Both the position numbers and the translations under genes were made by a program. A DNA stretch of 49,510 nucleotides from a virus, in the IMG/VR virus record IMGVR_UViG_3300019458_000049, positions 1-49,510 of that record; one strand, 5' to 3'. The notes beneath the pieces were generated by a model. That model did not search any database and had not been told where the DNA came from. It worked only from the letters and a program-made list of their open reading frames with translations. Below, piece by piece: positions 3,283-49,370 of the stretch; positions within the stretch are counted from its first letter, which is position 1; each line of letters begins with the position of its first letter.

Positions 3283-3302
3283 CGCCGCCCCTTACCAGAT
3301 GT

Positions 3303-5249: not shown

Positions 5250-5460
5250 GGGTCTAAGTAGTACAAGATTTGGAATGCGCGCGGAGCGCGCCCCTCCCTG
5301 TAGCGTAGTACCTGAGCGAAGCGAAGGTACGTAGCCAGGGAGTATCGGTATGGGTACCTCTCTCTATACCATGTGTACCGGGGAGGTCAGAAGTGATCTG
5401 GGTCAAGATCAAATTTGATCTGGGTCGCAAGCATCTCAAGGCAGGTCAAAGTGATCTGGG
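5250..5460 (-). promoter_or_regulatory. Noncoding control block between initiator and helicase genes
   Basis: This 211-base stretch is the longest gene-free part of the window. From high to low coordinates on the minus strand it holds three TGATCTGGGTC repeats, a perfect 14-bp palindrome (GATCAAATTTGATC, 5407-5420), a TATAGA box at about 5361-5366 with a loosely matching CTGACC sixteen bases upstream, and then a structured leader with two hairpins before the helicase start. Such a layout suits a promoter with operator or iteron sites, controlled by the winged-helix protein encoded immediately beside it. The promoter boxes are weak matches to sigma-70 and I hold them loosely. Confidence 0.5.
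5277..5342 (-). other. Two hairpins in the leader of the SF2 helicase transcript
   Basis: On the minus strand the leader can form a long imperfect hairpin. CTCCCTG at 5336-5342 pairs with CAGGGAG at 5294-5300, and inside it GTACCT pairs with AGGTAC (5325-5330 with 5307-5312) around a CG-rich loop. A compact 5-bp GC hairpin follows (5277-5281 with 5287-5291). The helicase start is about 30 bases below. There is no T-run after either hairpin, so they look more like RNA structures affecting stability or translation than terminators. The family is unrecognised. Confidence 0.45.
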
Positions 5461-5463
5461 TCA
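5384..5463. repeat. Iteron-like direct repeats with central palindrome
   Basis: Copy 1 (5384-5405) and copy 3 (5443-5463) share AGGTCA, one optional base, then AAGTGATCTGGGTCA. Copy 2 (5416-5426) has only the core TGATCTGGGTC and overlaps the right half of the palindrome GATCAAATTTGATC (5407-5420). The last three bases of copy 3 are the stop codon of the initiator-like gene. Direct repeats placed right beside a winged-helix replication-type gene are typical of plasmid and phage origins (iterons) or of autoregulatory operators. The sequence alone does not separate these. Confidence 0.6.
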
Positions 5464-17966: not shown

Positions 17967-19781
17967 TTAGCCTCCGCCGAGACCCGTTGCTTTGCCGAAC
18001 GGAAGGATGAGAGTTACCGCTTCCTTCTGCCCAGTCACGATCGGACTGATTTCCTGCGTCAATACGTCGCCATCGAGCACCACGGAGCTATCTTGGATGC
18101 CCTCGATCCGTGGGTCAAGAAGAATAGCCTCGCGCAGATTCAGCGCAGCGAGAAGGACGTGCTGAAGCGTGCCTCGAATGCCTACGTTGCGACGAATGCC
18201 CACCTCGGGCACATAGACCGTCGTACCGCGCTCCGTGAGAATCGTGATGGACGTGCCTTGTACGACGTTCTCCAAGCCATGGATGAGCAGTGCGTCTTGG
18301 AACGAACGCACCGTGTCTTCCAGTAGCTCGAATCGCCCCTTGTCCAACTCGACTGGATCGAGCGCGAGGTCCACACCGTAGAGTGCGTCATCGATTGTGA
18401 GGTTCTCATCCCCAGGCGCAACGCCAGCACCTGTCGGCGTCACGCCTTCACGAAGCGGGATGAGAATGAAATCACCTGGCTTAAGAATGCCAGGACCACC
18501 GCCTTCCGCGATGTACGGGAAGCGCAGATCATTGATGAGGATGATCAACTCTGCCGGCACGTCGAACTGGAACGCCAATCCTTCAATCGTAGTAGTCCGG
18601 AAGACACGGACGCGCGTGTAGCCACGATAGGCACTCAGATCGAGCCCTGCGTCTGCCTCCGAACCAACTGTGATGCGTGTCTTCGATCCAATCGACGCGC
18701 CGCCAGTTGCGTTTTCCAGGTCATCATCCGTGAGCGCAAGCTCGCGCTTGTACGCTGCCGATGTCCGCTCTCGCGTATCCGAACCAAAGCGCTGTGGATG
18801 CACAGCCAATCGGTCAATTGCCGCAGACATCCTCCGCATCGCATGCTGAATGTCAGCCGAAGTCTGCCCACGAGGCTGTCCACCCACATCTGGAATCGGA
18901 GCGAAGTCGTTGAAAGACTGCGCGAGATTATCTTGCGCACGGTCAACTGTTTCCAGCGTGGACGCTACGAGTTGAAACGGATAGGCGATGAGCGCTCCAC
19001 CGGCCTTCAGCATGTTGCCAACCGCATTGATGAGCCCTGCGGCTTGAAGCATGACGGCTTCGATGTTTCCTACCTTGCGCTTGATCGCTGCGATGTTCGC
19101 CGTGATTTCTGCGAACGCTGCGCGTGCGTCATTGAACGCGCTAGAGATGGCTTGCAGTTCGTCAGAGAAGAAGTCGAAGCCCTCGTCTGAAACGACCGGA
19201 ACGAGCGTGTTTGCTGCGTCTCCGATGACGGCAAGGGCGATACGGTAATCGTAATGCATCCGTGTCGTACGCGCATCGCGCGGTGTCTCGAAGCTTCGAG
19301 GCACCACGAGAAAGTGATCATCGTCTCGGAGCGAATGAAAGACCATCCGCGTGAACGGTGCCGTGCGTGGATCTTTCTTCAGTTCCGAATAGCACCGGAA
19401 CATCTCCCGTAGATTCGAAAAGTGCTCCGAGCCAGACACAGCGGAACCGCCGAATTGCACCCCCTCGAAGCCGGTGGCCTTCTTGTCAGACAAGCCCATC
19501 GTGCCTTCGATGATAATTTCACGAATGATGTACCCGGTTTCCTCCGCCACGACGGAGTTGTCTTCGGTCGGTGTCAACGTCACCTGGAACGGCTCCGACA
19601 ACGTGTACCGCCTCGGATTGAGTACGAGTACGTGAACTTGAAGCGGCGCAGGTTGCTGCGTGTTGCGAAGCTCGAAGACGTAACCCTTGCGAAAGCCTTC
19701 TTTGATGTCGAAGAGACTCGCCACCGCATCGATCGCGGTCGTGATCGAAAAGCTTTGCGGGCGCGGACTGGCAGCGACCAT
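17967..19781 (-). CDS. Baseplate fusion protein: LysM plus gp25-like wedge domain
   Basis: This 604-residue protein seems to join three parts. Residues about 1-200 resemble the N-terminal region of phage DNA-circularisation / tail-tube-initiator proteins (RYTLSEPFQVTLTPTEDNSV). Residues about 377-434 have a LysM-like stretch (RVFRTTTIEGLAFQFDVPAE) ending KPGDFILIP. The last 150 residues read like gp25 of the baseplate wedge, with DLALDPVELDKGRFEL early and IRRNVGIRGTLQHVLLA late. In most contractile phages gp25 and the LysM spacer protein are separate genes. The fusion would link tube base and wedge in one chain. Domain edges are by eye. Confidence 0.65.
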   Translation of the reverse strand: MVAASPRPQSFSITTAIDAVASLFDIKEGFRKGYVFELRNTQQPAPLQVHVLVLNPRRYTLSEPFQVTLTPTEDNSVVAEETGYIIREIIIEGTMGLSDKKATGFEGVQFGGSAVSGSEHFSNLREMFRCYSELKKDPRTAPFTRMVFHSLRDDDHFLVVPRSFETPRDARTTRMHYDYRIALAVIGDAANTLVPVVSDEGFDFFSDELQAISSAFNDARAAFAEITANIAAIKRKVGNIEAVMLQAAGLINAVGNMLKAGGALIAYPFQLVASTLETVDRAQDNLAQSFNDFAPIPDVGGQPRGQTSADIQHAMRRMSAAIDRLAVHPQRFGSDTRERTSAAYKRELALTDDDLENATGGASIGSKTRITVGSEADAGLDLSAYRGYTRVRVFRTTTIEGLAFQFDVPAELIILINDLRFPYIAEGGGPGILKPGDFILIPLREGVTPTGAGVAPGDENLTIDDALYGVDLALDPVELDKGRFELLEDTVRSFQDALLIHGLENVVQGTSITILTERGTTVYVPEVGIRRNVGIRGTLQHVLLAALNLREAILLDPRIEGIQDSSVVLDGDVLTQEISPIVTGQKEAVTLILPFGKATGLGGG

Positions 19782-34818: not shown

Positions 34819-36228
34819 CTACAGGCTGCCCAGCGCTCGTCCGATGTTCTTCACCACCACGTTCTTCGCAGGCGTGTACATCTTGATGGCACCGTAGATG
34901 ACCTGTGCCCAACGGATGGACGTGTCGATCGCCGCGAGCGGGATCCTCGTCATCGGCAGAAGCTGCGACCAAGAGAAGCTTCGCTGATTCTGCATCAGGA
35001 CGAAGCCCTTGGACGTGCCCGGCAGATCGTTGTTCCGATCCGTGATCACCTGCGTCGCGCCCGTACGAGCCACGCGGAAGGCGAAGCGTGCGGTACCAAC
35101 CGCAGCACCCGGAGCCGTCCGGTAAATCTCGTAGAACGTCGTGTCCTGGCCACCATCCGCGACGGTGAAGGTCACCGAGTCGCCAGCCGCCACGACCACC
35201 GCCGCCGAATCGACCGGCGTCGAAAGCCCGAAGCGGTTGCCCGCAACCACGCGGTAGATGTACGTGCCGGCATCCGCCGCACCGAACAACGATGCGGGAT
35301 CGGCAGCCGCCGCCGGAGCCACCGTGATGACCGGAGCGAGCGGACGACGATCCGTCTTCCCAAGGCCGGCAGCAAGCGCAAGCTGCCCTTCCGTGATGAA
35401 GACGTGATCGTGCAGGTTGATGCGCCCGTGCTGACCCTGGAACGCCGTGATCGTCGCGCCCAGAACGCCCGGTGCAGGCGCGATCTGGAACCGCTGACGG
35501 TCGTAAACCTGCTTCGCGAGATCGGCAAAGGGTCCCGTCGCGAAGTACGCGTCGGTCGCCATACCGAAGTTGTCGCGGATGCGGAGCAGGATGTCGTTCA
35601 GCGCTTCCTCCGTGAGAGGGTTGCCGCGCAGATCGACCACGTTCGCCGGAGCGCCGAGGGTGATGAGCCGCTCGATGCCGTCGAACTGCTCAGGAATGAG
35701 CGACGAATCACCGAAGAACAGGGCGTTCTCCAAATTCTTCAGAAGCTCCATCGTCTTGTTCATCGTCTCCAACGCGATCACGTTGCCGTGGGCAGCGCGA
35801 ATCGTGTTGGCAACGTGCGTGACGCGTCCGACCGTGCCCAAGTACTTGATGAGCACCGTGACGCGCTCGTACGTGGTGTCCTCTTCCTCGGGCAGATCGC
35901 CCTCGGTCATCCACCCCAGGTTGAAGCGACGCGCACCTCCCTGGCCGTACGAGATGAGACGATTGAATTCCTCGACCGTGTTCGTGGCCGGGACCTTCGG
36001 AATGGACTTGAACAGCTTGATCTCGTCCATCTCGAAGGTGAGGTTCTTGAGCGTTGCTTCCAAGCTCTCCGTTCGGAGTGGGAAGCCAACGCCAGGCGCA
36101 ACCGCCGGAGCACCGACATCTTGCCCAGCGAAGAGCGCCTTTCGCAGATCCGCGAGTTCGTCGGGCGACGAGGTTCCGAAGCCCTGGTAGTCGCGGTAGT
36201 CGCGTGCTGAAACGAACGATCCGATCAT
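34819..36228 (-). CDS. Major capsid protein with inserted Ig/FN3-like domain
   Basis: The 469-residue protein begins MIGSFVSARDYRDYQGFGTS and carries a HK97-fold pattern: N-arm, long helix region TLKNLTFEMDEIKLFKSIPK, and ATDAYFATGPFADLAKQVYD. Between about 300 and 395 lies an inserted domain (GTYIYRVVAGNRFGLSTPVD...TFYEIYRTAPG) that has the strand pattern of a fibronectin-III/Ig fold. It is probably displayed on the capsid surface. The C-terminal A-domain resumes with SWSQLLPMTRIPLAAIDTSI. The start has GGAGGAG at a suitable distance. The preceding genes are scaffold-like and protease, and the hairpin after the gene fits strong expression. Confidence 0.85.
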   Translation of the reverse strand: MIGSFVSARDYRDYQGFGTSSPDELADLRKALFAGQDVGAPAVAPGVGFPLRTESLEATLKNLTFEMDEIKLFKSIPKVPATNTVEEFNRLISYGQGGARRFNLGWMTEGDLPEEEDTTYERVTVLIKYLGTVGRVTHVANTIRAAHGNVIALETMNKTMELLKNLENALFFGDSSLIPEQFDGIERLITLGAPANVVDLRGNPLTEEALNDILLRIRDNFGMATDAYFATGPFADLAKQVYDRQRFQIAPAPGVLGATITAFQGQHGRINLHDHVFITEGQLALAAGLGKTDRRPLAPVITVAPAAAADPASLFGAADAGTYIYRVVAGNRFGLSTPVDSAAVVVAAGDSVTFTVADGGQDTTFYEIYRTAPGAAVGTARFAFRVARTGATQVITDRNNDLPGTSKGFVLMQNQRSFSWSQLLPMTRIPLAAIDTSIRWAQVIYGAIKMYTPAKNVVVKNIGRALGSL

Positions 36229-36268: not shown

Positions 36269-37192
36269 CTACGCGTACGTACGCGCGGCCTTCGCCTCGT
36301 TGGGATGCGTGCGAAGGAAGCTTCGCACAGTGTCCACCGTCTCCTGCGAGATGACCGACCCACCTTCCAGCAAGCCGATCACCTCCGACGTCTTCTGCCC
36401 GTTGATCTGCCGGATGCCCTTCTCGATGTTCATGTACGAGAGCGCCGATACGACCTCGGACTTCGAGAGATCGCCGCCACCCTCGCCCACCTCACCGGGA
36501 AGTGCCTTCGCCAGCGCCTGCGCCTGCGGAGTCGAAGTCGCTCCGCGAGGCTTCTGCGGAGTCCGCTCGATGATGCCGAGACGCTGGCCAAGCTCGTTGA
36601 TGACCATCGCCTGCGACTTCACAAGCCCACCGATCTGCGCAACCGCCGCAGCGACGTGCTTGTTGATGAATGCCTGATGGCCCGCGAAGTCGTCCTGCGA
36701 CTTGCGGATGCCGTCAAGCTGGTCCGCAGTGCGCGCCGTGAGTGCCTCCAAGAACGGAGACACGTCGATTGCGTCCGCAACATCCTTGTCCGCACGGTAC
36801 GCGTCCATGGACTTCGCGGTGCCGGAGGGAGCCGGGCGACCGTGCGAGACCATGCCGTGTCCCGCCTTGCCCTCCTCTTCCTCTTCCTCCTCTTCCTCAG
36901 GCTCTTCGTTGCGCTGCTTCGCAGCCATGAAGCCCGCGAACTCGGACACCATGTCGGCAGGCAGGCCCGCCTCGATGAGCTTGCCGATCATCATGTCGTC
37001 AAGCCCGCCCATGTCGCTCGCCTCGGCTCCACCACCGGAGACCTTGCCGCGTTCGTCGCTGTGCCCGCTCCACTCGACGCTCGTACCGCCGTATGCCTTC
37101 GCGAGATCGGTGGCCTCGGCTGCCTTGACGAGATCCTGAAGGCTCGCCTCCAGACCCTCCAACGTCACTTCTCTCTGCTCGTTCTCTGCCAT
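36269..37192 (-). CDS. Scaffold-like protein with acidic run
   Basis: The 307-residue protein lies between the prohead protease and the capsid gene, as scaffolds do. The first part is polar, with a run of nine glutamates after EEPEE near residue 118. The middle (about 160-215) is helical and probably coiled coil (QLDGIRKSQDDFAGHQAFIN). The C-terminus (SEVIGLLEGGSVISQETVDT) is a small helical domain that may bind the capsid protein. Low complexity and high charge suit a protein later cleaved by the protease. Confidence 0.68.
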   Translation of the reverse strand: MAENEQREVTLEGLEASLQDLVKAAEATDLAKAYGGTSVEWSGHSDERGKVSGGGAEASDMGGLDDMMIGKLIEAGLPADMVSEFAGFMAAKQRNEEPEEEEEEEEEGKAGHGMVSHGRPAPSGTAKSMDAYRADKDVADAIDVSPFLEALTARTADQLDGIRKSQDDFAGHQAFINKHVAAAVAQIGGLVKSQAMVINELGQRLGIIERTPQKPRGATSTPQAQALAKALPGEVGEGGGDLSKSEVVSALSYMNIEKGIRQINGQKTSEVIGLLEGGSVISQETVDTVRSFLRTHPNEAKAARTYA

Positions 37193-37193
37193 C

Positions 37194-37982
37194 TCAGCCT
37201 CCGTTTTCGGGATGCCACCGAAGAGCGTAATCGGCCACGCGCTCCGCGAACTGTTGCGTCACCTTCGGGTTCAACTTCATGAGCAACTGAACAGCTTCGC
37301 TCTTCTTCATCTTCTTCTTGCGCTTCTTGCGAAGTTGATCCGTGTAGAGCAACTCGCCGCTGTGCTCCCACTCGCCGTGCTGTGGAGCCATCACAGCCAT
37401 GCCACCCATTGAGCCCGAGACCGGCGTGTTCTTCGGTGCCGGTCCCGTGCCCGCTGCCAACGACTTTGCCAGCACCTGAAGCTCCGTCTGTGTGTTGACG
37501 GGGCAACGTGTAATCGCCACTTCACGGACAACAGCCTTGCGCACTGTTCTCGGATTCTTCGGATCGCGATCGACGACTTGCCCCTCAACGCTGAATCCGA
37601 GACGCCTGTCCGTCTTCTGAAGTGCGTTCGCGAGATCCCAGAGCCGATCGGCGCGATCATGCCCCTTCAGCAAGTACCCTTCGACGTACCAGCCCTTGCG
37701 CCCATCGGGAAGTTCACGAAGCTGCGCAGCAGTCGGATATCCAACAAGAGCCTCGGTGCTCTTGTCGTGATTGTCGTTGAACCAACCACCTTTCATGAAC
37801 GGCGAGAAATCGAGCCCATCCTGAAGCAATGTCTCTTCTTGCCGATCCAGATGATCGGTAGAGACGATACCTCCGATACGGCGGTCCTTCGTGCCGTCAG
37901 GCCCCGCCTTCTCGAAGACCTCAACATCGATCTCGAAGCGGAACGGATGTCCTGTGGTCTCGGTCATCTCTCTAGAAAACAC
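37194..37982 (-). CDS. Prohead protease (HK97 U35/S78-like)
   Basis: The 262-residue protein has the herpesvirus-assemblin-type protease core. FNDNHDKS supplies the catalytic His (residue 72), and RLGFSVEGQV supplies Ser131, with REVAITRCPVNTQTELQV completing the fold. It cleaves scaffold and capsid N-arms during head maturation. The C-terminal 50 residues carry a strongly basic RKKRKKKMKKS stretch and probably act as a scaffold- or DNA-binding tail. I use GTG 37982, which has GGAG eight bases upstream in the hairpin arm. ATG 37967 is an alternative start with a weaker AGAGAG site. Confidence 0.87.
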   Translation of the reverse strand: MFSREMTETTGHPFRFEIDVEVFEKAGPDGTKDRRIGGIVSTDHLDRQEETLLQDGLDFSPFMKGGWFNDNHDKSTEALVGYPTAAQLRELPDGRKGWYVEGYLLKGHDRADRLWDLANALQKTDRRLGFSVEGQVVDRDPKNPRTVRKAVVREVAITRCPVNTQTELQVLAKSLAAGTGPAPKNTPVSGSMGGMAVMAPQHGEWEHSGELLYTDQLRKKRKKKMKKSEAVQLLMKLNPKVTQQFAERVADYALRWHPENGG

Positions 37983-38301: not shown

Positions 38302-38594
38302 TCTGGGAAGACGACACCGATTGCGCGCCCATACGGCTTCAGCTTGTCCGGAATCGGCACACCGAACATCAGACAACCGCGAAAGACCGCGCGCCACATC
38401 CTGGCAACCTCTTCAGGGTCGTGGCGCTTGCGAAGCTCGATCTCGTTCGCAGGGCGCATGATCCAGGCGAGCTTGGCTCGTGCAATGTCAGCGTTCGGAA
38501 CGCGCTCGAAGTATTCGATGTCGAGCGGTCCCTTGAACGTGATGTCGTCTGGCCCAAGAAAAGCGAGAAGCGGATTGTGATCTAGGCGAGCCAC
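38298..38594 (-). CDS. Unknown 98-aa protein
   Basis: GTG 38594 has GGAGG at seven bases and overlaps the end of the giant helicase gene by 13 bases. The product is helical, with ELRKRHDPEEVARMWRAVFR near the middle and one Cys, then a Pro-rich VPIPDKLKPYGRAIGVVF. I do not recognise it. The coupling to the helicase gene upstream and the Com-like gene downstream suggests co-expression with the polyvalent proteins. Confidence 0.6.
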   Translation of the reverse strand: MARLDHNPLLAFLGPDDITFKGPLDIEYFERVPNADIARAKLAWIMRPANEIELRKRHDPEEVARMWRAVFRGCLMFGVPIPDKLKPYGRAIGVVFPE

Positions 38595-41500
38595 GACGGC
38601 ACCTCCGTCTGCGGGCGAACGAAGAAACGCGCCATCGATTTCTCCGTCTCGGCTTCCTTCATTTCCTTGGGAAGCAACGAGAGCTTCGCAAAACTAGACG
38701 ACCTCACATCCACGAAGTCGTAGTTCGTCTTCACCGGCTGTGCCGTCTGCACCGCGTTCAAAAGGCGCTCGAAGGCCACTTGCTTGACACGTCCTCGCGC
38801 CAACTGCGAACGCTCCGCCATGACAGGCGACTCGACTGCAAACGCACCCGTGGGCCTCTTGATCTTCTTCTTCTTGCCCGTCGTCGGATCCTTATCGACG
38901 ATCGTCTCGTAGACCGGCATGTCTGCGCTCACCGTGAGCCGTTGCACGGACACGAGATAGCGGCGGCTCTTCAGAATCTCGCGGTCGAAGAGCGTGAGCC
39001 TCGTTTCCAGAATCTCATTCATCACGTCAGCGTCCGTGATGGCTTCCGGACGAACGAAATTCTCCGGACTTTCCGGCTTCAACTTGTTGGGCACTCTCCC
39101 ATGCACTTTGAGCCGCGCTGCCACTTCTTCGCGGTACTTCGCAATCTTGTCCATTGCACGCTTCGCGAACCACGCTTCGAGGATTTGGTCGGGTGCGCCG
39201 CCCGGCATCGTGTTGATGAGCGAACGCTCTGCCGACGTGAGCGCTGACTGAATGCCTTCTTTCACGATGCGCATCGCAGAATCGATGCCTTCGTACTCCT
39301 TGAAGCCGTTCTCCTTCTCGATCTTCTCGATGTAGGCACCGATCTTCTCGATCATCTTCTTGGCCGGGCCGCGCACCGCCGGAGGCAACAGTCGCGTCGC
39401 GCGGGCGATGCGCTGCCATTCCGCCATCGAAGAGAAGAGCGAGTCATACATGAAAAGCTGCGTCACGCCGGACCAATTGAGCCCGGTCTGTGCTGCGTCC
39501 GATGCAATCATGAAATCACAGTTGTTCATGATGCGCATCTGCCTATCACTCAGTGGCAGTCGATCAACCCAATAGGGTTTGAGGACGGCTTTCATCTGCG
39601 CCAAGAGTTCATCGCCCTCTTTTTCAGTCGCAGCCGCGATACGAGCTTGCTCCAATTCCTTGAAGCGCTTGCGGTCGGCCGGCTTCATCTCCGTCTCGTA
39701 GACGTAGCGCTGGACGATCTTGCCCTTGACGTCGAAGCTGCCAACACGCAAAGGCATCTCCAATCCGACACGACGACCCTTTTTGTCGGTCATCGTCTCC
39801 GACACGAAGTTCTGCGCGATCTTCTTGCGCTGCCCACGGCTCCAACCTTCGGAGATTTCCCCAGCCGCCGGAATCTCCCCAAGCTCGCCATGAAGTGCCC
39901 GTGCGACGAACATGGACAGGCCGGTATCTTTGCCGAACATATCCAGTTGGCGACGGAAAATCTCACTGTTCAAGTCACGATTGCCTTGCGTCGCTCCCGC
40001 ACCCATGTACGAGACGAAGAACTTGCGCGTCTTGTCGGCCTTCTTCTTGTCGAAGTCAGTCGAGATGTCCGCATGCCCAAGAGCCTCGTTCACATCCATG
40101 TAGCCCATGAGGCGCAGCTTCGATTCGCTCGTACGCACTGCGCTCCCGACACGGTTTCCGAAGATCACCATCTGAACGCCGTCACCACCACCGTGTACCG
40201 GATCGAGCAGCGCTTTGATCCTCTTCTCCATCTCGTCGCACTTCGCGTTGCCATGCGTCATCGTGTGATCGAACATGAAGCGCTCGCGTCGGCGCTTAGG
40301 AGAAGTCTGGATATCGAACTCCTCATGGCCCGGCTTGGGACCTTGCTTGCCACGTCCAGCAACAACAATCTTCTTCTTTTTTTCCTCGGCTTCCTTCTCT
40401 GGATCGAACTCGAAGTCCTCGTCGGTCTCCTTCTGCTCTTCCGCCGATGACTTCTCCTCTTCTTCGTCCTCTTCCTTCTCGCGCTCCGCCCGATCTTTCG
40501 ACGTATCGCCAGCTTCGCCCGTATCCGTGAAGGAACCGCGCTCGTTCCAATCATCTTGGACGTAATATTTCGCAGCAGCCTTCTGATTCGGATCGCGAAT
40601 GAATTTCATCCCAATTGGGATGGTGATCTGCTCCTTGCCATCTGGCCCGAAGAACACTTCTTCGACCGGCGTTACCTCGCCCGTCTTGTCATCGAGACGC
40701 CCTCTGGCAATCGCACCTTCAGGCCCGTATTCGGGGTTGCGGACCTTGCCCCCTTCCTTACCCCACACATCGCCAGTCGGAAGCTCCCAACCTGCTTCGA
40801 TCTTGTCGAGTGTCGCTTTGTCGATCGCTTTGCCCGCAAGAACACGGTAATCCTTGTTGAAGAGATAGGGAGCAAGCATTTCCAGAACCAAAAAGTAGTT
40901 CGGATCGTGCTCGTACTCTTCCCGCGTCGGCCACCGGCCTCCCCATCCTGCTGGACGCTTGGCTTTGATGACATCGAGTGTAGGCAGCGTGAACTGCCGT
41001 TTGACTTCTAGGACCTTCAGCTTGTTGGTTTTCTTGTCCTTCGTGATCTGCGTCGTCTCGTAGATGAGGAACTCTCTGTCGTCAGGCGGCTTGTAGCCGG
41101 GCGAGTTCCCGTAGCTCCGACCAACGGCGGTCTTCTTCCGCCCCTTTGCACTGAGCATCTTTTCTTCATCGAGACCCAATGCGCCAGACGCCGCCAGTGC
41201 CTCTTGCTCTTCGGGAGTCAGCGCCGCTTGCGAGAGCCGGTACAGACGCGCCTGTTGACCCGTCATATGCGCCGGGTTGTTCTCGTCCAACAGAACTGCC
41301 GGCATCGTCTTGCCCACCACGTCACTCGGCAACGCAACGTGGAGATAAGGCTGCAACTTCATCATGAGTTCGCCAACGGTCGCTGGATTGAGATCCGTCT
41401 TCGGGCCGTCTTTCTTGCCGGCTGCTTTCATGATGGCGGATTCGACGAGATATCGGTTCGCGAACTCTTCGTCCGAACCCAAGTCCATCGCACCGCCCGT

Positions 41501-44500
41501 CAGAATGCGCATGATGCGCGGAATCGCATCGAGCGTGTTCGTGAGCGGCGTTCCGGACATGAGAACGCGGAGGTTCATCTTCTGCATCCACTTCTCGATT
41601 TCAGCCGACAGGATGTTCTCTCTGGCGACTACCTGCGCTTCATCGAGCACAAGCCCGTCGAATTGATCGAGCAAGACCAATTCCTTCGCATGCTCACGGA
41701 AGTACGCATGATTGATGACTACGTTCTTGCTCGTGTCCGTGAACGGGTTCCAATACTTCGGGTTCTTCTCGATGAGCTTCTTCCAGGCTTCGATCGCGCG
41801 CTTGCGATATGCCTCTTGCGATTCGCCTGCCTTGTAAGGCACATGGCCCGACAGATCCGGAATCGCGAGCGCACCGGCCAACGAACTCGTGCCGAGCAGG
41901 ACAGCACGCTCCGTCGTGAACTTCTTCTGCTCTTGCATCCAATTTTCGACCGTGTTCGGCGGGCCGACGAAGATGCAGCGCTTCCGAACTGCGCGCGAGT
42001 GCAGCTTTCCAGTCGCCGGGTCTTTCAGGTTCCGGAACAACGACGCAGCCGCGATGCTTAGTGGCGTCTTTCCTGTGCCCATCGAATGGGCGAAGTATTG
42101 AACACCTCCCATCCGAGCCAGCTTCTGCAATGCATCGACACGAAACGGGATCATCTGAATGCCCTTGTCGCCAGGCACAAGCGCACGCAGTGGGCCGTCC
42201 GGATTCACGTTGCCATGCGCGTCCTGAAGATCTTCAGGAGAGATCACATCGTCCTGAAGCGCTTCAACCAGCATCCGCTCATGTTCGCCAAGCTGTTTCA
42301 GTTGTGCCTGCACCCGCGAGTCCATCATGAATCCGCCCAAGTACTCGCGAAGACGCGCAATCTCTTGCGGTGCTTCGAGCACAACGTCCTGTTCCAAACC
42401 CACACCCACACCCATCCGAAGTGCAACGCCAGGCATGCGCTTGATTTCTTCTGCGCCGATACGGCCACTCTTCGGCAATCGAATCTTAATCGTGCCTCGC
42501 GGATCGAACTCATTCGAACCTACAGGCACGTCATCCATGTACAGGAGCACGTCGTCCGTCAGCGGATCGACGAACCGCCGTTGAACATCCGGCTGCCCCG
42601 GAACCGCGGTATCGAACGTTGCCTCTACACGAGGCACGATGTACGCGCCTTGCGTGATGCCAGCACCTTGCCCTTTCACGTTCTCGACTTCGGCACTGCC
42701 ATCAGGACGCAACTTCCTGACGATGGCATGGACGCGCCGCTTCGTCTTTTGATCCAGCGCCCAAACGAGCGCGCCTGGCGCGACAGCAACCTTCTTCGGG
42801 CTACGTAGACGGATGCTTCCTGCCTTGATCTCGTCTCGGCGCGTCAGTAGCTCGTCAATCCGAATCTCCGTCTTGCCAAGCTTGCGCGCCCAGTAATCCC
42901 CAACGACCTTCGGCGGACCCAAACCATCATATTCGAGTTGCAAATGCACAATCGACGAACTGTACTGTTCCGTGGCCGGCCCACTGGGTCTCATCTGCAC
43001 CGAGAACCATCGACGAATGCCATGCTGCATCGGAAGTCCAGTAACCGGATCGGCAGAGGTCATCCGCGCCTTTGCTGCTTCGCGCATGATGTGCTGAAGA
43101 TCCGCCTCGCTCTCTATCGGTACGTCGTTCGGATTCACAAGCGATGCAAGTACAGGGTCTATGATCTGCCCGCGCGCATAGACGCCGTTCTTTTCCAGAA
43201 GTTCTTTCGCCGTCGTCTTGTACTTCCGCGCAAGCTTGATGGGATCGGCAGTGCCGGTCACCGTATCTTCACGCCATTCGCGCACACGGTGCTTCAGCCC
43301 AGCCTCATCTGTGATCTCGACTTCGACAGGCGCGATGATCTTCTCACCAATTTGGAACGGGCTCGCCGTTGCGACGACGACCTGCGCGATGGTCCCGTCC
43401 GGATTCTCTTGCTCGTAGATTTTTGATGTTACTTGCCGGACCGTCTTCTTCAGAGACGGATCGTAGACGAGTACATCCTTGCCGCCTTCTTTACGAGGCC
43501 ACACACGTTCCGACTTCTCACGCGCATAGCGAAGCTCGCCAAACGCGAACGTTCCACTCTTTTGAACGAACTCGTCGCGCGTAATCTCGACAGGAGCCCA
43601 ATCGTAACCGGCCCGATGCGGGTCCTTGCCCGCCGCGAGCGCTGCCTGCGCACGCTTACGCTCTTTCTCGCGCGTGTGCCCGCGCTCCGCGCTGTAGCCC
43701 AGCGCTTCGTACATCTTGTAGGACAGGCGATGTGTATCATCGAACTTCTTCTTCTTGCCCGTCACTGGATCTTTTTCCGTCGCCGCCTTGCGTTCACGTT
43801 CTGCGATGTACGTGAGATAATCTTCCGGCTTCTCACCGCCCAAGCGTGCATGCGCAACGGTATCTTCGTCGAACTGCCCGAGATAGAAGTACGCCTGCTT
43901 GTCCGTGAGCGGCTTACCAGTCTCGTCGTAGAATTCTTTGATGAACGCCTTGAAGCGCGGTCCTAGCTTTTCATCACGCGTCGGCAACCCTGTCTCTTCA
44001 TCGGTCGGTGAAGCCAACTTCGTCCATGTGTCTTCCGACACCGGATCCGGAGGACCGATCCGAACGTAGACCGTCTTGCCGTCCTTGTGGACCGCATAGA
44101 ATTGGTCCTTGTCGGAATGATGCGCCGCAAACGGCTGCGCCGGGTCAACCATCTTCAGGTAATTGAGGAGCCGCGTTGCTGATGTCGTCGGCGTCTTGTC
44201 CCACCACGCCAAATCGGCGTCCGGTGCCTTCAAGATTTCATCAATCGGAGGCAGCGTTGCTTTCAGAACATGCTTGCGAAGGAACTCATAACGCTTCGGG
44301 CACTTCTGCGCGAGTTGCTTCGGATAGTTGACAGCGCAACCGAACGTCTCCGCGAAATCTTCGTAGATGTTCTTACCGGCATACGGTGTAATCCGCGGCT
44401 CAGAATTATCGGCAGAGAGTGTCGCCCACTCCTCTGCCGCAGCCTTGAAGTGATCGATGAGCGAATGATGCACCGCATGCCCTGTTTCATGGGCAACGAC

Positions 44501-45199
44501 ATCTTCGAGCAACGTGAACGATCCCATGTAGCGCGGCGTCCCTTCCGGCTCACGGTACACACCCATTCCTCCGTTGATTACGACATGGTGCGTCTTCGGA
44601 TCGAAGTACCCCCCAACCTCGTTCGGGTTCATGAAATTCGACAACAACACAGGATCCATGTCGCTGGGATCTTGCATCCTGAACTCGGAGACCCCCTTCT
44701 TCTTTTCCAGAAGTTCTTTTACTTCATCAGGCAATCTCTTGACCGCATCTGCAATACGCGATGCCGGCGCAAGGCCGCGCTCCTTCGTGCCCGTCTTCTC
44801 AGCCGCGATGTATGGAAGATCGTGCGTCTTCTCGAAGATTGCCGTCTTCTTGACGACCGCTTTGCCGATCCCCAGCCAATCCTTGATCGCCTTGATCGTC
44901 GCTTCGACGACTTCCATCGCCTGCTTGGCAAGATGAGGATGCTCTTTTGCGACCTCGCTGGCAGGCAAGTGAACGACTTCTACATTCCGTCCCGCGATGA
45001 CGCGTTGCTCTTGCGCAGCCTGCCCACCACGAGACGCTTCTTCAGCCGTCCTGTACCAGTAGACGTACCGAAGCTTGCCTCCGATGATGCGTCGCTCGCG
45101 CTTCAGGTACTTGTGCCCGAGACGAGGCGCACCTTCTCGCTGGAATGCCTTCGCGAGATCGGGAGAAACCGCACGCGCAAGCGGAACGAGATGCTTCAC
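38582..45199 (-). CDS. Giant polyvalent protein: zincin metallopeptidase plus SNF2-type helicase
   Basis: About 2205 residues. I start at GTG 45199, which overlaps the upstream TGA as GTGA and has GGGAG at seven bases, rather than at GTG 45217. A GHKYLKRERRIIGG...RYVYWY linker lies near residues 28-49. A zincin follows, with VVAHETGHAVHH (HETGH at 237-241) and EDFAETFG as the third-ligand helix. A LysM-like stretch (LARKYKTTAKELLEKNG) comes later. From about 1040 there is an SF2 core: MGTGKTPLS, DEAQ (1186-1189), MSGTPLTN, then SDAAQTGLNWSG (about 1900) and EWQRIARATRLLP (about 1930). Between motifs III and V lie some 680 residues, including a strongly acidic low-complexity stretch. The combination resembles injected polyvalent/DarB-like proteins, but with a metallopeptidase instead of a methylase. 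Its role is presumably protecting or remodelling incoming DNA. Confidence 0.8.
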   Translation of the reverse strand: MKHLVPLARAVSPDLAKAFQREGAPRLGHKYLKRERRIIGGKLRYVYWYRTAEEASRGGQAAQEQRVIAGRNVEVVHLPASEVAKEHPHLAKQAMEVVEATIKAIKDWLGIGKAVVKKTAIFEKTHDLPYIAAEKTGTKERGLAPASRIADAVKRLPDEVKELLEKKKGVSEFRMQDPSDMDPVLLSNFMNPNEVGGYFDPKTHHVVINGGMGVYREPEGTPRYMGSFTLLEDVVAHETGHAVHHSLIDHFKAAAEEWATLSADNSEPRITPYAGKNIYEDFAETFGCAVNYPKQLAQKCPKRYEFLRKHVLKATLPPIDEILKAPDADLAWWDKTPTTSATRLLNYLKMVDPAQPFAAHHSDKDQFYAVHKDGKTVYVRIGPPDPVSEDTWTKLASPTDEETGLPTRDEKLGPRFKAFIKEFYDETGKPLTDKQAYFYLGQFDEDTVAHARLGGEKPEDYLTYIAERERKAATEKDPVTGKKKKFDDTHRLSYKMYEALGYSAERGHTREKERKRAQAALAAGKDPHRAGYDWAPVEITRDEFVQKSGTFAFGELRYAREKSERVWPRKEGGKDVLVYDPSLKKTVRQVTSKIYEQENPDGTIAQVVVATASPFQIGEKIIAPVEVEITDEAGLKHRVREWREDTVTGTADPIKLARKYKTTAKELLEKNGVYARGQIIDPVLASLVNPNDVPIESEADLQHIMREAAKARMTSADPVTGLPMQHGIRRWFSVQMRPSGPATEQYSSSIVHLQLEYDGLGPPKVVGDYWARKLGKTEIRIDELLTRRDEIKAGSIRLRSPKKVAVAPGALVWALDQKTKRRVHAIVRKLRPDGSAEVENVKGQGAGITQGAYIVPRVEATFDTAVPGQPDVQRRFVDPLTDDVLLYMDDVPVGSNEFDPRGTIKIRLPKSGRIGAEEIKRMPGVALRMGVGVGLEQDVVLEAPQEIARLREYLGGFMMDSRVQAQLKQLGEHERMLVEALQDDVISPEDLQDAHGNVNPDGPLRALVPGDKGIQMIPFRVDALQKLARMGGVQYFAHSMGTGKTPLSIAAASLFRNLKDPATGKLHSRAVRKRCIFVGPPNTVENWMQEQKKFTTERAVLLGTSSLAGALAIPDLSGHVPYKAGESQEAYRKRAIEAWKKLIEKNPKYWNPFTDTSKNVVINHAYFREHAKELVLLDQFDGLVLDEAQVVARENILSAEIEKWMQKMNLRVLMSGTPLTNTLDAIPRIMRILTGGAMDLGSDEEFANRYLVESAIMKAAGKKDGPKTDLNPATVGELMMKLQPYLHVALPSDVVGKTMPAVLLDENNPAHMTGQQARLYRLSQAALTPEEQEALAASGALGLDEEKMLSAKGRKKTAVGRSYGNSPGYKPPDDREFLIYETTQITKDKKTNKLKVLEVKRQFTLPTLDVIKAKRPAGWGGRWPTREEYEHDPNYFLVLEMLAPYLFNKDYRVLAGKAIDKATLDKIEAGWELPTGDVWGKEGGKVRNPEYGPEGAIARGRLDDKTGEVTPVEEVFFGPDGKEQITIPIGMKFIRDPNQKAAAKYYVQDDWNERGSFTDTGEAGDTSKDRAEREKEEDEEEEKSSAEEQKETDEDFEFDPEKEAEEKKKKIVVAGRGKQGPKPGHEEFDIQTSPKRRRERFMFDHTMTHGNAKCDEMEKRIKALLDPVHGGGDGVQMVIFGNRVGSAVRTSESKLRLMGYMDVNEALGHADISTDFDKKKADKTRKFFVSYMGAGATQGNRDLNSEIFRRQLDMFGKDTGLSMFVARALHGELGEIPAAGEISEGWSRGQRKKIAQNFVSETMTDKKGRRVGLEMPLRVGSFDVKGKIVQRYVYETEMKPADRKRFKELEQARIAAATEKEGDELLAQMKAVLKPYWVDRLPLSDRQMRIMNNCDFMIASDAAQTGLNWSGVTQLFMYDSLFSSMAEWQRIARATRLLPPAVRGPAKKMIEKIGAYIEKIEKENGFKEYEGIDSAMRIVKEGIQSALTSAERSLINTMPGGAPDQILEAWFAKRAMDKIAKYREEVAARLKVHGRVPNKLKPESPENFVRPEAITDADVMNEILETRLTLFDREILKSRRYLVSVQRLTVSADMPVYETIVDKDPTTGKKKKIKRPTGAFAVESPVMAERSQLARGRVKQVAFERLLNAVQTAQPVKTNYDFVDVRSSSFAKLSLLPKEMKEAETEKSMARFFVRPQTEVPSWLA

Positions 45200-45507
45200 T
45201 TCGCCGCTCCCATCCACGAGAACGGCGACGGTACATCATACACAGCCGTCAGGAAATGTTCGAGCGTCCCAGGTTGCTCTGTCGTCGCATAAGTAATCGA
45301 TATGCCGTCTACGAGCTTTCCTGTGATGCTTTTCGCAGGCGTTCCGAAATGAGTGAAGAGCGCTTGCTTCTCGGCATCCGTGATCTTCTCTTGCACGTTT
45401 GTAATCGCTACGCCGCCGTCATCGCGTCGCCGGATGTCGAACGCGTGCTCGACAACTCCGTTCGCACGCTTGCGCCCAATCTTCCACGCCTTCGGCAACG
45501 GCAACAT
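45196..45507 (-). CDS. Unknown 103-aa protein between the giant genes
   Basis: ATG 45507 overlaps the preceding stop as TGATG, with GGGAG at seven bases. The stop overlaps the helicase gene's GTG. The product (MLPLPKAWKIGRKRANGVVE...) has basic N-terminal and mixed beta segments (VDGISITYATTEQPG) and no Cys. A small partner or chaperone for one of the giant proteins is possible, judging only from its position and double coupling. No family is recognised. Confidence 0.6.
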   Translation of the reverse strand: MLPLPKAWKIGRKRANGVVEHAFDIRRRDDGGVAITNVQEKITDAEKQALFTHFGTPAKSITGKLVDGISITYATTEQPGTLEHFLTAVYDVPSPFSWMGAAK

Positions 45508-48500
45508 CAGAGCACTCCCAGCATCGTTTCTACGATGCGCCTGTGAATCGTTCCCGAGTCAGCCAGTTCGTCCGACGTACCGTAGAGCAATCGCATAAGT
45601 TCGGGCCATTGCGCAACTTCGCGAATCATCCCAGTCGTGAGAAGAGTACCAGCGTTTGCGTCGGATTTGTACCAGTGCCCGCCTGGAAGCATGTTCTCGC
45701 GCGTCCACGGGTCTCGCAAGTCCTTGAACGTCCGGATGCGCACGCGGCGTGACACACCTGTAGCCGGGTCCGTCATGGTCGTCACTGCCCACCCATACTC
45801 GAATCCATGGCCTTCGACTTCGACCGCCACCGTCTGCGTCGCCAACCGCCGCATCTCCGCAGTCTCAGGCGCAAGCTGACGCGCGATGCGCATTCTGACT
45901 TCGGCTTCGTCGATTCGATCTACACGATCTGCCGCCGCCCGCGTCATCCTCACCAGATCGAGTTGATGTGTCCGATCCAGGCTGTCCTCCATCGTGTCTG
46001 CACGCTCTTGGATGCGATCGGCAATGGCTGCCAAGCGCTGCTTCTCTTCGGTGCGCCATCCCGCAACGCGCTCTGCCGGCACAGCGTCGGCTCGCTTCTT
46101 CAGAATCTCACCGTACGTCGGGCCGGGTTTCGCCATCTCAGGCGGAAGCAAGCGGTCCTCGGCTTGCTCGATGATCTTCGAGCCCTTGTCGTCCAGCGTC
46201 CATCGCGCCCGATCCAAGGCACGTTCGAGGAACGTCTTCGCGACTTCTCGCGCTTGCCGTTCCGCAAGACGCTTCCATTCGCCTTCAGCCGTGCGACGGA
46301 AGACAGGCACCATCTGCGCGATGTCAGCGATGCTCATGCTCTCGTCGCTGTCGAGCCCGAGTGACAAGCGGAGGATTTCACCCGAGTCCGCCTTGTACGT
46401 CGTCTTCTTGCGCCCTTCGCCAAGCGTAATCGTGTGCTCTTTCAGAGCATCGAGCACTTTCGCCATCTGATTGTGGATGACAACCTTGTCTTCAGGCGAA
46501 AGCCCGAGCCCGATGCCGAGCCCAGGGAAGAGCGTTTCAGTCTGTTCCGTCAGGTCGCCAGGCTCTTTCGTGCCCTTCAGAAAGCGATCGTAACGCTCCG
46601 CCCATTCGATCTTGCCAGGCTGCACATCCGTATCGATGAGCTTTTCGTGTTCACGCTTTGCCTTCAGTCGGTAACTCTTCTGCGGCACGCCTTCGTTGCC
46701 CTGCGGCTTGCCTTCGAGGCCAGCATGTACGTCCTTCTTGCGAAGAATCCAGAACCGCGCAATCTGCTCCGGCGTCGGGTCTTCGACACCGAGCTTGCGC
46801 ATCGCCGTTGCTCTTGCGGCGATGAAGCCACCGAGCATGCGCGAATGCCGCTTCGACATCCCAAGCCCGCCAGAACGTTCGCGAGCCGCATGCAGCCGCG
46901 CATAATCACGCGAGATGAACTGCGCGTGCTTCGCGAAGCTCATGCCGCCTGGATAGCTGTCGATCGCCTTCAGCATGCCCTCCATCGCGGCAGATCGAAG
47001 CTCGACCATCGTGAGGTTCACCGCAGGACGCTTGTACTTGCCTTCCCAGGTCTCCCAGTTGTCTTGCAATCCGAACAGGCGCTTCGCCTTCTTCGCAACG
47101 TTCTGAATCATGCCGGCGAACTCTGCGAGCAGTTGCTGCTTCGACGCATCGTCCACTTGCAGCCGCCGCGTCATGACGAGTTCCCCGTCCGAGTGGCGCT
47201 GCCTGATGACCTTCATCACGAAGTAGCTGTTCTCGATCTTGTGGAGCGCCGTGCCCTTCTTCGCCGTGGATTCTGCGAACGCAGGAACCCGCACAGCCTT
47301 CTCGGCAACGCCAGTGACCTTCGGCGGCTTCGCCGTGGGCGTCGTCGGATCCCACGTCACTTCCTTTGCCTTCGGCACAGGTGGCCGATGGAAGACCGGG
47401 AAGACGCGATCCTCTTGAACCGACATCTCTTCGCCTGAGTTCACGTCACGCAGGCGTGCCCATCCACGCTCCGGTCGCCCAACGATCTGGTACAGCCGTT
47501 CAACGTGGCCGGCTTCCTTGACCGGATGCTTCGAGTGAATCCGAACGCCGCCTGACTCCCAGCCGATCGGCGGATGCCCTGGAACAACCTGGAACCAAGC
47601 CCAATGGGCCGGCACCTTATCGAAATCGCCAGCCGCGTACTGCTCTTCGGTCCACTTCGTCTCAGGACCGGGTGCTGCGGCTGCCCTAGCGGCTTCAGGA
47701 CGCGTCGGCTTGGGCGAAACCGCCTCCGGGTACCAATACTCCCAGCCCTTCTTCGAGCGCCGCCGGTAGCCTCCTTTCTTGCCCTTCGGGATCGGACCCC
47801 AGCCACCGCCAGGCGGCTTCGCAGCTTTCTCCAAGCTCTCATCGTGCCAAGCTTTGAGCAACGCCACGACTGTGCTCAGATGACGGATCGCCTCTTTGGC
47901 GTCATCATTCTCGATCGCATCACGAGCGCCTTGAATCGCATGCGTTGCTTCGTGCCCCTTCTCTGCACTCAGTGATTCCTTCGCCACCATCTGCCGAACC
48001 TGCTCGATGACTTGCAGGTGCTTCGCCTTCTCTTCGGCAGACATCGGCGTTGGCTTGCTACGCGTGGCAAGACGCTCTTTGAGCTTCCGAATGCCATCCG
48101 GATCGTCCGGTGCCGGCCTCTCGCGCGCTTCGCCCGGCTTCTTCCACGAAATCTTGCGCTGTGGATCGGCCCACTTGCCGCCACGCGGGCCAAGGAAAAA
48201 AGATTGCGCCTTCGCGATCACCCGCTCCCAGTCGAAAGACAGCGCAAACTTCGTGTGCGTACCGTCCGGGTGAACGATGCGCGTGTAAAAGTCTGCCGCT
48301 TCCGGCTTCTCCTCGAAGCCCTTGCCTTCGATGCGCTTGCCTGTGTGCTCGCCTGTCGTGTAGTGAAGTTCCTGCTTGCCACCTTCGGCGTAGATCACGG
48401 AGTCCTGATTGAACTCTTTGCCAATCTGCTTCACGTAATCACGTTTCGCGTCATGCACCATGACGAGGAAACTATCCTCACGCCCTTCGTAGTGACCTTC

Positions 48501-49370
48501 GACTCGGCTGAAGGCGAAACCATCTTCTACGAGACGGTCTCGGAGCTTGCCGTGCCGCGCTTTCTGCTCTGCCTCTGACATCTCCGATTCAAGGCGCGGA
48601 TTCCTGCCGGCGCTGATGAGAGCGAACTTCCCATTGCGTAGCAAGATGCGAAGCTCTTGCTTCGTGAGCCCGACTTCACGACCTTCGCCTTTTCCACGGC
48701 GCGCCACCTTCTCTTGGAGCGCGAGCAGATCCGGTGCTTTCGGGAGTGCTTTCTTCTTCTCCGGCGCTTCCGGCCTGACGCGGAAGCGGGGCTTGCGCTC
48801 CGAGTAGATGTACCGCCACGTACCAGGGATTCGGCCATGCTCACGGCGGATGTACTTATGGCCTGGCTTGGCCGTCCCTCTCTCGAACTTGCCAGTCATC
48901 TCGACAAGCCCGCTGTGCGCTTGCGTCTTCGTCGGCAACTTCGTGTCACCGCCAGCGAGCCATGCCTTGAACTCCTCCACCGACATTTCGCTGATTGACC
49001 CGAACGCCTGCGGATCGTTGCGATGTGCCAGGTAGGCGTTCTTCGCCTCCTGTGCCGAACCGAAACCAAGGAAGCACTTGTGCTCATCGAACTTCGTGTA
49101 GGACGGCTTCGCTAGCTGATTGACCACGAAGACGCGATCGGAGCTATCGACAGGCCCGATGTAGCAATCCATCTCTTCGCCGTCCGCGCCGATCGTCTTC
49201 TCGACATAGCCGTACGGATTGAGCATCTTCGTCTTGCCGGCGTTGCCTTCCTCGTCTGTCCAACGGCGCACAGAGCCGGTTCGATTTTCAATGGCAATCG
49301 GCACACCCTGGACCTCGGCCTTGCCTTGCAGCTTGGCCTTCTGAAGATCCGCGATGGTCAGGACGCTCAC
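45507..49370 (-). CDS. Polyvalent protein: pyrophosphatase-like domain plus sigma-70-like region
   Basis: 1287 residues from GTG 49370 (AAGG at five bases, GTGA overlap). Residues about 22-138 match the inorganic-pyrophosphatase-like domain of phage polyvalent proteins (NPYGYVEKTIGADGEEMDCY, then FVVNQ and FDEHKCFLGF). A GHKYIRREHGRIPG linker follows at 170-183. Residues about 248-345 form a separate domain with EGHYEGREDSFLV and NQDSVIYAEGGKQELHYTTG. More linkers are GPRGGKWADPQRKI (about 394) and GGYRRRSKKGWEYWYP (about 533). From about 748 the sequence reads as sigma-70: region 2 (VELRSAAMEGMLKAIDSYPG, with GMSFAKHAQFISRDYARLHA), region 3 (RHSRMLGGFIAARATAMRKL then DPTPEQIARF) and region 4 (GEILRLSLGLDSDESMSIAD). 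It is probably packaged and injected to redirect host RNA polymerase. Confidence 0.78.
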   Translation of the reverse strand: MSVLTIADLQKAKLQGKAEVQGVPIAIENRTGSVRRWTDEEGNAGKTKMLNPYGYVEKTIGADGEEMDCYIGPVDSSDRVFVVNQLAKPSYTKFDEHKCFLGFGSAQEAKNAYLAHRNDPQAFGSISEMSVEEFKAWLAGGDTKLPTKTQAHSGLVEMTGKFERGTAKPGHKYIRREHGRIPGTWRYIYSERKPRFRVRPEAPEKKKALPKAPDLLALQEKVARRGKGEGREVGLTKQELRILLRNGKFALISAGRNPRLESEMSEAEQKARHGKLRDRLVEDGFAFSRVEGHYEGREDSFLVMVHDAKRDYVKQIGKEFNQDSVIYAEGGKQELHYTTGEHTGKRIEGKGFEEKPEAADFYTRIVHPDGTHTKFALSFDWERVIAKAQSFFLGPRGGKWADPQRKISWKKPGEARERPAPDDPDGIRKLKERLATRSKPTPMSAEEKAKHLQVIEQVRQMVAKESLSAEKGHEATHAIQGARDAIENDDAKEAIRHLSTVVALLKAWHDESLEKAAKPPGGGWGPIPKGKKGGYRRRSKKGWEYWYPEAVSPKPTRPEAARAAAAPGPETKWTEEQYAAGDFDKVPAHWAWFQVVPGHPPIGWESGGVRIHSKHPVKEAGHVERLYQIVGRPERGWARLRDVNSGEEMSVQEDRVFPVFHRPPVPKAKEVTWDPTTPTAKPPKVTGVAEKAVRVPAFAESTAKKGTALHKIENSYFVMKVIRQRHSDGELVMTRRLQVDDASKQQLLAEFAGMIQNVAKKAKRLFGLQDNWETWEGKYKRPAVNLTMVELRSAAMEGMLKAIDSYPGGMSFAKHAQFISRDYARLHAARERSGGLGMSKRHSRMLGGFIAARATAMRKLGVEDPTPEQIARFWILRKKDVHAGLEGKPQGNEGVPQKSYRLKAKREHEKLIDTDVQPGKIEWAERYDRFLKGTKEPGDLTEQTETLFPGLGIGLGLSPEDKVVIHNQMAKVLDALKEHTITLGEGRKKTTYKADSGEILRLSLGLDSDESMSIADIAQMVPVFRRTAEGEWKRLAERQAREVAKTFLERALDRARWTLDDKGSKIIEQAEDRLLPPEMAKPGPTYGEILKKRADAVPAERVAGWRTEEKQRLAAIADRIQERADTMEDSLDRTHQLDLVRMTRAAADRVDRIDEAEVRMRIARQLAPETAEMRRLATQTVAVEVEGHGFEYGWAVTTMTDPATGVSRRVRIRTFKDLRDPWTRENMLPGGHWYKSDANAGTLLTTGMIREVAQWPELMRLLYGTSDELADSGTIHRRIVETMLGVL

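Follow-up and report, generated by a model that had tools for sequence, protein, structure and literature searches.

A sigma-70-like module within a polyvalent phage protein, and a possible route for injecting a transcription initiation factor

Phages are known to inject complete RNA polymerases, as well as enzymes by which the polymerase of the host is modified. The large polyvalent proteins of phages have been described in detail, and the transcription-initiating components among them are N4-like RNA polymerases and protein-modifying enzymes (PMC5512222); the term "sigma" does not appear in the main text of that study (Iyer et al., 2017). Phage sigma factors are known as stand-alone, expressed proteins (PMC8948821; PMC7824862), and the first of these sources describes the promoters read by gp36 of phiEco32 as a single element, tAATGTAtA, with no -35 sequence (PMC8948821). 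A sigma factor within a polyvalent protein appears to be undescribed. Our search of the openly accessible literature turned up no sigma factor that is injected or carried in the virion.

The stretch of DNA analysed here, hereafter the window, is an IMG/VR virus fragment of 49,510 bases from an uncultivated phage. On its minus strand (45507..49370) it encodes, in a single open frame with a GTG start, a protein of 1287 aa that has homologues in 10 related phage records; the sigma-like segments quoted from this reading frame in the original prediction are indeed present in it. The pyrophosphatase-like domain of polyvalent type that had been proposed for the same chain was recovered as an InPase domain (residues 15-138; 48957..49328, minus strand; Pfam PF18823, E 2.7e-38), and it is accompanied by a SAM-lyase/DUF3293-like domain (residues 262-363; 48282..48587, minus strand; PF23780, E 1e-6; PF11697, E 2.7e-5).

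The proposed position of the gene beside head genes was borne out as well, with protease, scaffold and capsid genes downstream in the window and genes for portal and minor head-like proteins upstream in the relatives. From the head end, the minus strand of the window reads polyvalent protein, a 103-aa ORF, an SNF2 megaprotein, the head maturation protease (37194..37982; phrog_1028, 2.5e-48), the head scaffolding protein (36269..37192; phrog_15087, 9.9e-5) and the major capsid protein (34819..36228; phrog_752, 3.8e-88), followed by tail sheath and baseplate; the order in relatives is portal, an ORF of 137-254 aa, minor head-like protein, sigma-bearing protein and SNF2 megaprotein. The megaprotein (2211 aa; 38582..45217, minus strand) combines an N-terminal HETGH zincin motif, read from the sequence, with an SNF2 helicase (Pfam SNF2, 4.7e-9; Helicase_C, 1.7e-5) and is likely a second polyvalent protein. 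It is kept in the module-bearing relatives at ~33-44% identity. With several unrelated effectors (InPase, SAM-lyase/DUF3293, sigma) joined in one chain, and with the gene lying among virion genes in window and relatives alike, the assignment of the 1287-aa protein as a phage polyvalent protein is well supported.

A search with the major capsid protein yielded 28 related loci, most of them with 72-84% identity. When larger records were searched with the full polyvalent protein, residues ~512-1285 proved to be conserved in 10 of them at 35-45% identity, and an alignment scan added one more partial homologue. Because two of the records (G013 and G014) give an identical module match, we count 9 independent homologues, which together with the window form the alignment A1. 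The sigma module is constant across these relatives and the N-terminal effectors swap (InPase, SAM-lyase/DUF3293, GNAT, ART), with InPase in several relatives, GNAT in L060 and ART-PolyVal in L064; fusion with InPase, GNAT and ART fits injected proteins (PMC5512222). The sigma-bearing protein of the latter relative (L064:3-4796) also carries, besides its ART-PolyVal domain, a TMEM65-like stretch (Pfam E 7e-15). Four capsid relatives (G004, G009, G010 and G012), whose records may be fragments, encode an InPase-bearing protein without the module. The capsid scan also led to one Gammaproteobacteria MAG contig, with no module match in the portion examined. When the modules of two relatives were compared by tblastn with phage records, one produced no more than a weak match (E 0.4), to the sigma factor of a Bacillus phage, and the other none; tblastn matches in Achromobacter N4-like phages and in Sphingopyxis VSN-002 were dropped, as they did not match the family profile.

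Residues ~739-1066 are almost certainly a diverged sigma-70-family module, an assignment that rests on sequence profiles, on the predicted fold and on an architecture conserved in relatives. The order of sigma-70 regions that had been read into residues ~748-1060 is thereby upheld by both profile and fold, as sigma2-sigma3-sigma4. Taken as a single sequence, the module (residues 681-1097) has no significant match in Pfam, NCBIfam or the PDB, nor does it find one among plasmids or PHROGs, and PF04542 was absent from the record in a profile search. Ordinary annotation could therefore not support the call, and relatives were needed. The best PDB matches of the A1 profile are to RpoS: four chains, with E values from 6.1e-5 to 0.016, that run colinear with it in regions 2-3 as well as in region 4. 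Aligned by hhalign with E. coli RpoD, RpoS, RpoH and FliA, the profile reached a probability of 95.4 and a score of 67.8 over RpoD 376-498 (regions 2.1-3.1), compared with 14.8+-3.1 (maximum 25.0) for column shuffles and 17.5 for the reversed alignment. Among the 10 A1 members, three match the PHROG family of RNA polymerase sigma factors, phrog_351 (best 1.5e-9), and in three relatives Pfam recognises Sigma70_r2 inside the module (E values of 4e-4 to 8e-4). The comparison with sigma structures suggested in the original prediction gave a concordant answer: among the best 50 PDB matches found by VIA-align for the AlphaFold2 model of the module (mean pLDDT 77), essentially all are sigma factors or sigma-containing complexes, and 77 residues of sigma2 superpose on region 2 of sigma28 at 1.7 A (VIA Z 9.3). 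Long multi-domain alignments have a large rmsd because the domain orientation differs, and the global Foldseek score is modest (best E 1.3e-3).

The module, like the features around it on the minus strand, can be followed domain by domain. A pre-sigma2 segment (residues 701-738; 47157..47270), predicted as a helix and beta-hairpin, is where many of the sigma fold matches begin (VIA alignments from model residue 21-23). Region 2 (residues 739-835; 46866..47156) matches sigma28 in VIA and aligns with RpoD from position 376, and region 3.0/3.1 (residues 836-885; 46716..46865) continues this alignment up to RpoD 498. The region-3 hallmarks that had been noticed in the window are shared by the family, with conserved LPxRHxR and PTPEQ sequences. 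A conserved sigma3-sigma4 linker (residues 886-956; 46503..46715), for which the alignment identified no sigma counterpart, leads to a region 4-like HTH (residues 957-1066; 46173..46502) with a beta-hairpin insert before its last helix. Support for region 4 is weaker than for regions 2-3, and the proposed region 4 holds in part: taken alone it scores above all of 60 shuffles in hhalign and has a fold match to region 4 of SigA (VIA Z 5.7, 79 residues, 3.2 A), but the score is low (20.8 versus 10.8+-2.2, maximum 19.4) and the region is diverged and carries the insert. The C-terminal part (residues 1067-1287; 45510..46172) is conserved in relatives as part of the constant block. For the C-terminal half of the protein Foldseek returned no significant match, and the VIA list for its model consists mostly of long-helix matches.

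At the positions equivalent to RpoD contacts, alignment A1 shows D403 still acidic and the hydrophobic positions of regions 2.1-2.2 kept, whereas the equivalents of Q406, E407 and N409, which bind core polymerase in RpoD, are not. W433 is lost and F419 is replaced by Tyr; F427 is Phe, Y430 is His or Tyr, and P453 is Pro, each in 9/10 sequences. Basic residues predominate at the extended -10 positions, H455 and E458. This pattern fits a sigma factor whose core contacts have changed and whose region 3.0 is strong, and the lost core-contact residues are the main warning against presuming ordinary sigma activity.

A shared promoter of non-host type, which the original prediction had suggested searching for, was found in the relatives as a one-element motif ahead of non-structural genes; its exact form is absent from the gene strand of the window. 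The motif family [C/A]ATCG[G/T]GTA (ATCGKGTA) occurs in G006, G008 and G011, the three large records that have both the module and a non-structural half. In an unbiased word count of the sequence ahead of genes, ATCGGGTA ranks first among 8-mers in G008 (7 occurrences versus 0.07 expected, P 2e-12), and the top word in G006, TCGTGTAA, belongs to the same family. Counts on the gene strand and antisense are 15/0, 15/2 and 6/0 in the three genomes. Of the 36 sites on the gene strand, 20 fall entirely in DNA that belongs to no called gene, a fraction amounting to just 6-7% of each genome. Many of the sites precede a start codon by 13-60 nt, distances that are approximate because genes were called with a simple custom script. 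All 37 sites behind the motif profile fall in non-structural regions, and in G008 a helicase and a DnaB-like helicase are among the genes that follow the motif. No conserved -35 was found beside the motif, and an enumeration of -35/-10 dyads gave nothing clear above shuffles. The motif is not above expectation in G012 and G009, two large relatives lacking the module; in G009 (L109-L112) several genes are preceded by another enriched motif, TATCCGATATA. The structural halves contain no enriched word clear enough for a late promoter. Host-type promoter-like sequences, TTGACG...CATAAC, lie near the capsid gene in the structural region of G008 (near 74829) and of G011 (oriented; near 19481).

Within the window, a more relaxed form of the motif, [C/A]ATCNGGTA, has four copies against a chance expectation of about two. 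All of them lie at 1.7-8.3 kb, in the non-structural part and upstream of ORFs. One of the four, the candidate variant promoter element CATCTGGTA (3293..3301, minus strand), is located 19 nt upstream of a DnaB-like gene, and CATGGTATAGAGAGAGG (5357..5373, minus strand) lies 124 nt upstream of a helicase gene; in a relative, CATCGGGTAT is found 137 nt upstream of the matching helicase gene. As promoters these variant elements are only suggestive, the pattern having been noticed after the fact. Also upstream of the helicase gene (5384-5462) are three direct repeats of ~21 nt that end in GTGATCTGGGTC or TTGATCTGGGTC, possibly binding sites or origin iterons.

The three motif-bearing genomes each also encode a small sigma factor, recognised by Pfam in region 2 (best E 6e-7), which carries a canonical DLxQEA and has a more canonical region 2 than the polyvalent module. 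Sharing these genomes with the motif, the small sigma factor could be its reader. It consists of region 2 and a region 4-like tail (G008:20500-20667, L081; G011:5059-5238, L084; G006:103761-103937, L083), and in G008 and G011 a ATCGTGTA element lies in-frame just past it, ahead of an internal ATG. A search for phages with the small sigma factor and without the module returned, apart from weak matches, just a near-copy of G011. A 104-kb relative without the polyvalent sigma module encodes a 181-aa ECF-like sigma factor (G012:58675-59124; L070, L082).

These data lend themselves to a model of an injected sigma factor firing the ATCGKGTA promoters, to which we assign a probability of about one half or slightly less (0.48). 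The polyvalent protein would be made together with the head genes, enter the capsid and be injected alongside the DNA; delivery by the virion is probable, and an injected role of the sigma module is likely. After entry, the constant C-terminal half with sigma2-sigma3-sigma4 would bind the core RNA polymerase of the host and direct it, mainly via regions 2.4/3.0 and without a -35, to the one-element promoters, so that genes for replication and takeover would be switched on before any phage protein is synthesized. The N-terminal enzymes (InPase, SAM-lyase-like) might act alongside, for instance by clearing pyrophosphate or countering restriction. Core binding, the pairing of module and motif, and the timing are steps that we infer. 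Seven records, which may be fragments, yielded no RpoB-type subunit, and the control was matched in 14/14 genomes; for want of such a subunit, the core enzyme that partners the module is most probably that of the host. More tentatively, the injected sigma factor and host core would fire the early ATCGKGTA promoters and the expressed small sigma factor would continue the programme, a cascade that would be undescribed.

Several other readings have to be weighed against the injected initiation factor. That the similarity to sigma factors is a chance matter of helices is extremely improbable: the matchless single sequence and the modest global Foldseek score might be quoted for it, but the profile, control and fold tests contradict it. 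It is unlikely, though to be reckoned with, that the module is a sigma homologue, delivered or made late, that serves as a decoy or in host shut-off by competing for or modifying the host polymerase, and that the small sigma factor owns the ATCGKGTA promoters. The altered core-contact residues of the module favour such a role, and the small sigma factor keeps DLxQEA, is directly recognised by Pfam and is present in exactly the three genomes with the motif; a pure decoy, however, would have no need of a sigma3 with a basic LPxRHxR or of a region 4, both kept in at least nine divergent phages.

Location of the gene in the head operon implies a late-made protein, and the module might accordingly be a late sigma factor of the producing cell, or a passive passenger in the particle, with no injected initiation role. 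We regard this as distinctly unlikely, given that the structural halves lack the phage-type motif, that structural regions carry the host-type TTGACG...CATAAC-like sequences and that the fusions with InPase, GNAT and ART resemble those of injected proteins (PMC5512222). Very unlikely, too, is a sigma fold repurposed for DNA binding or scaffolding inside the capsid without a role in initiation; diverged core contacts, the HTH insert of region 4 and the head-gene context speak for it, yet the order and spacing of sigma2-3, the acidic D403, F427, P453 and the basic residues of region 3.0 are conserved.

Should the injected initiation factor prove true, delivery of the specificity subunit alone would be a third and cheaper route to seizing transcription at entry. 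The sigma module adds a domain class to the polyvalent proteins, diverged phage sigma factors escape annotation from single sequences, and a conserved module and a conserved promoter-like motif make the prediction concrete.

When set beside known systems, the protein resembles described polyvalent proteins (PMC5512222) in being large and multidomain, in its polyvalent InPase, in its swapping effectors and in adjoining head genes and a zincin/SNF2 megaprotein, and differs from them in carrying a sigma-70 module. It shares with bacterial RpoS, RpoD and FliA the fold and the sigma2-sigma3-sigma4 order, and departs from them in its ~19% identity, lost core-contact residues, long 3-4 linker, region 4 HTH insert and embedding in a polyvalent chain. 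The highly diverged sigma-like specificity proteins AR9 gp226 and phiKZ gp68 (PMC9209446; PMC13282480) offer a parallel to this divergence, but they sit in phage non-virion multi-subunit polymerases. gp36 of phiEco32 and gp47 of 7-11 redirect the host RNA polymerase, as we propose for the module, and the phiEco32 promoters are a precedent for a one-element motif; both proteins stand alone, however, the accessible part of that source describes no virion role for them, and gp36 is there a middle-gene product serving middle and late genes (PMC8948821). The virion RNA polymerase of N4 (PMC4496689), finally, is transcription machinery delivered with the DNA for early genes, as is proposed here, with the difference that N4 delivers a single-subunit polymerase and the phages studied here would deliver a specificity factor for the enzyme of their host.
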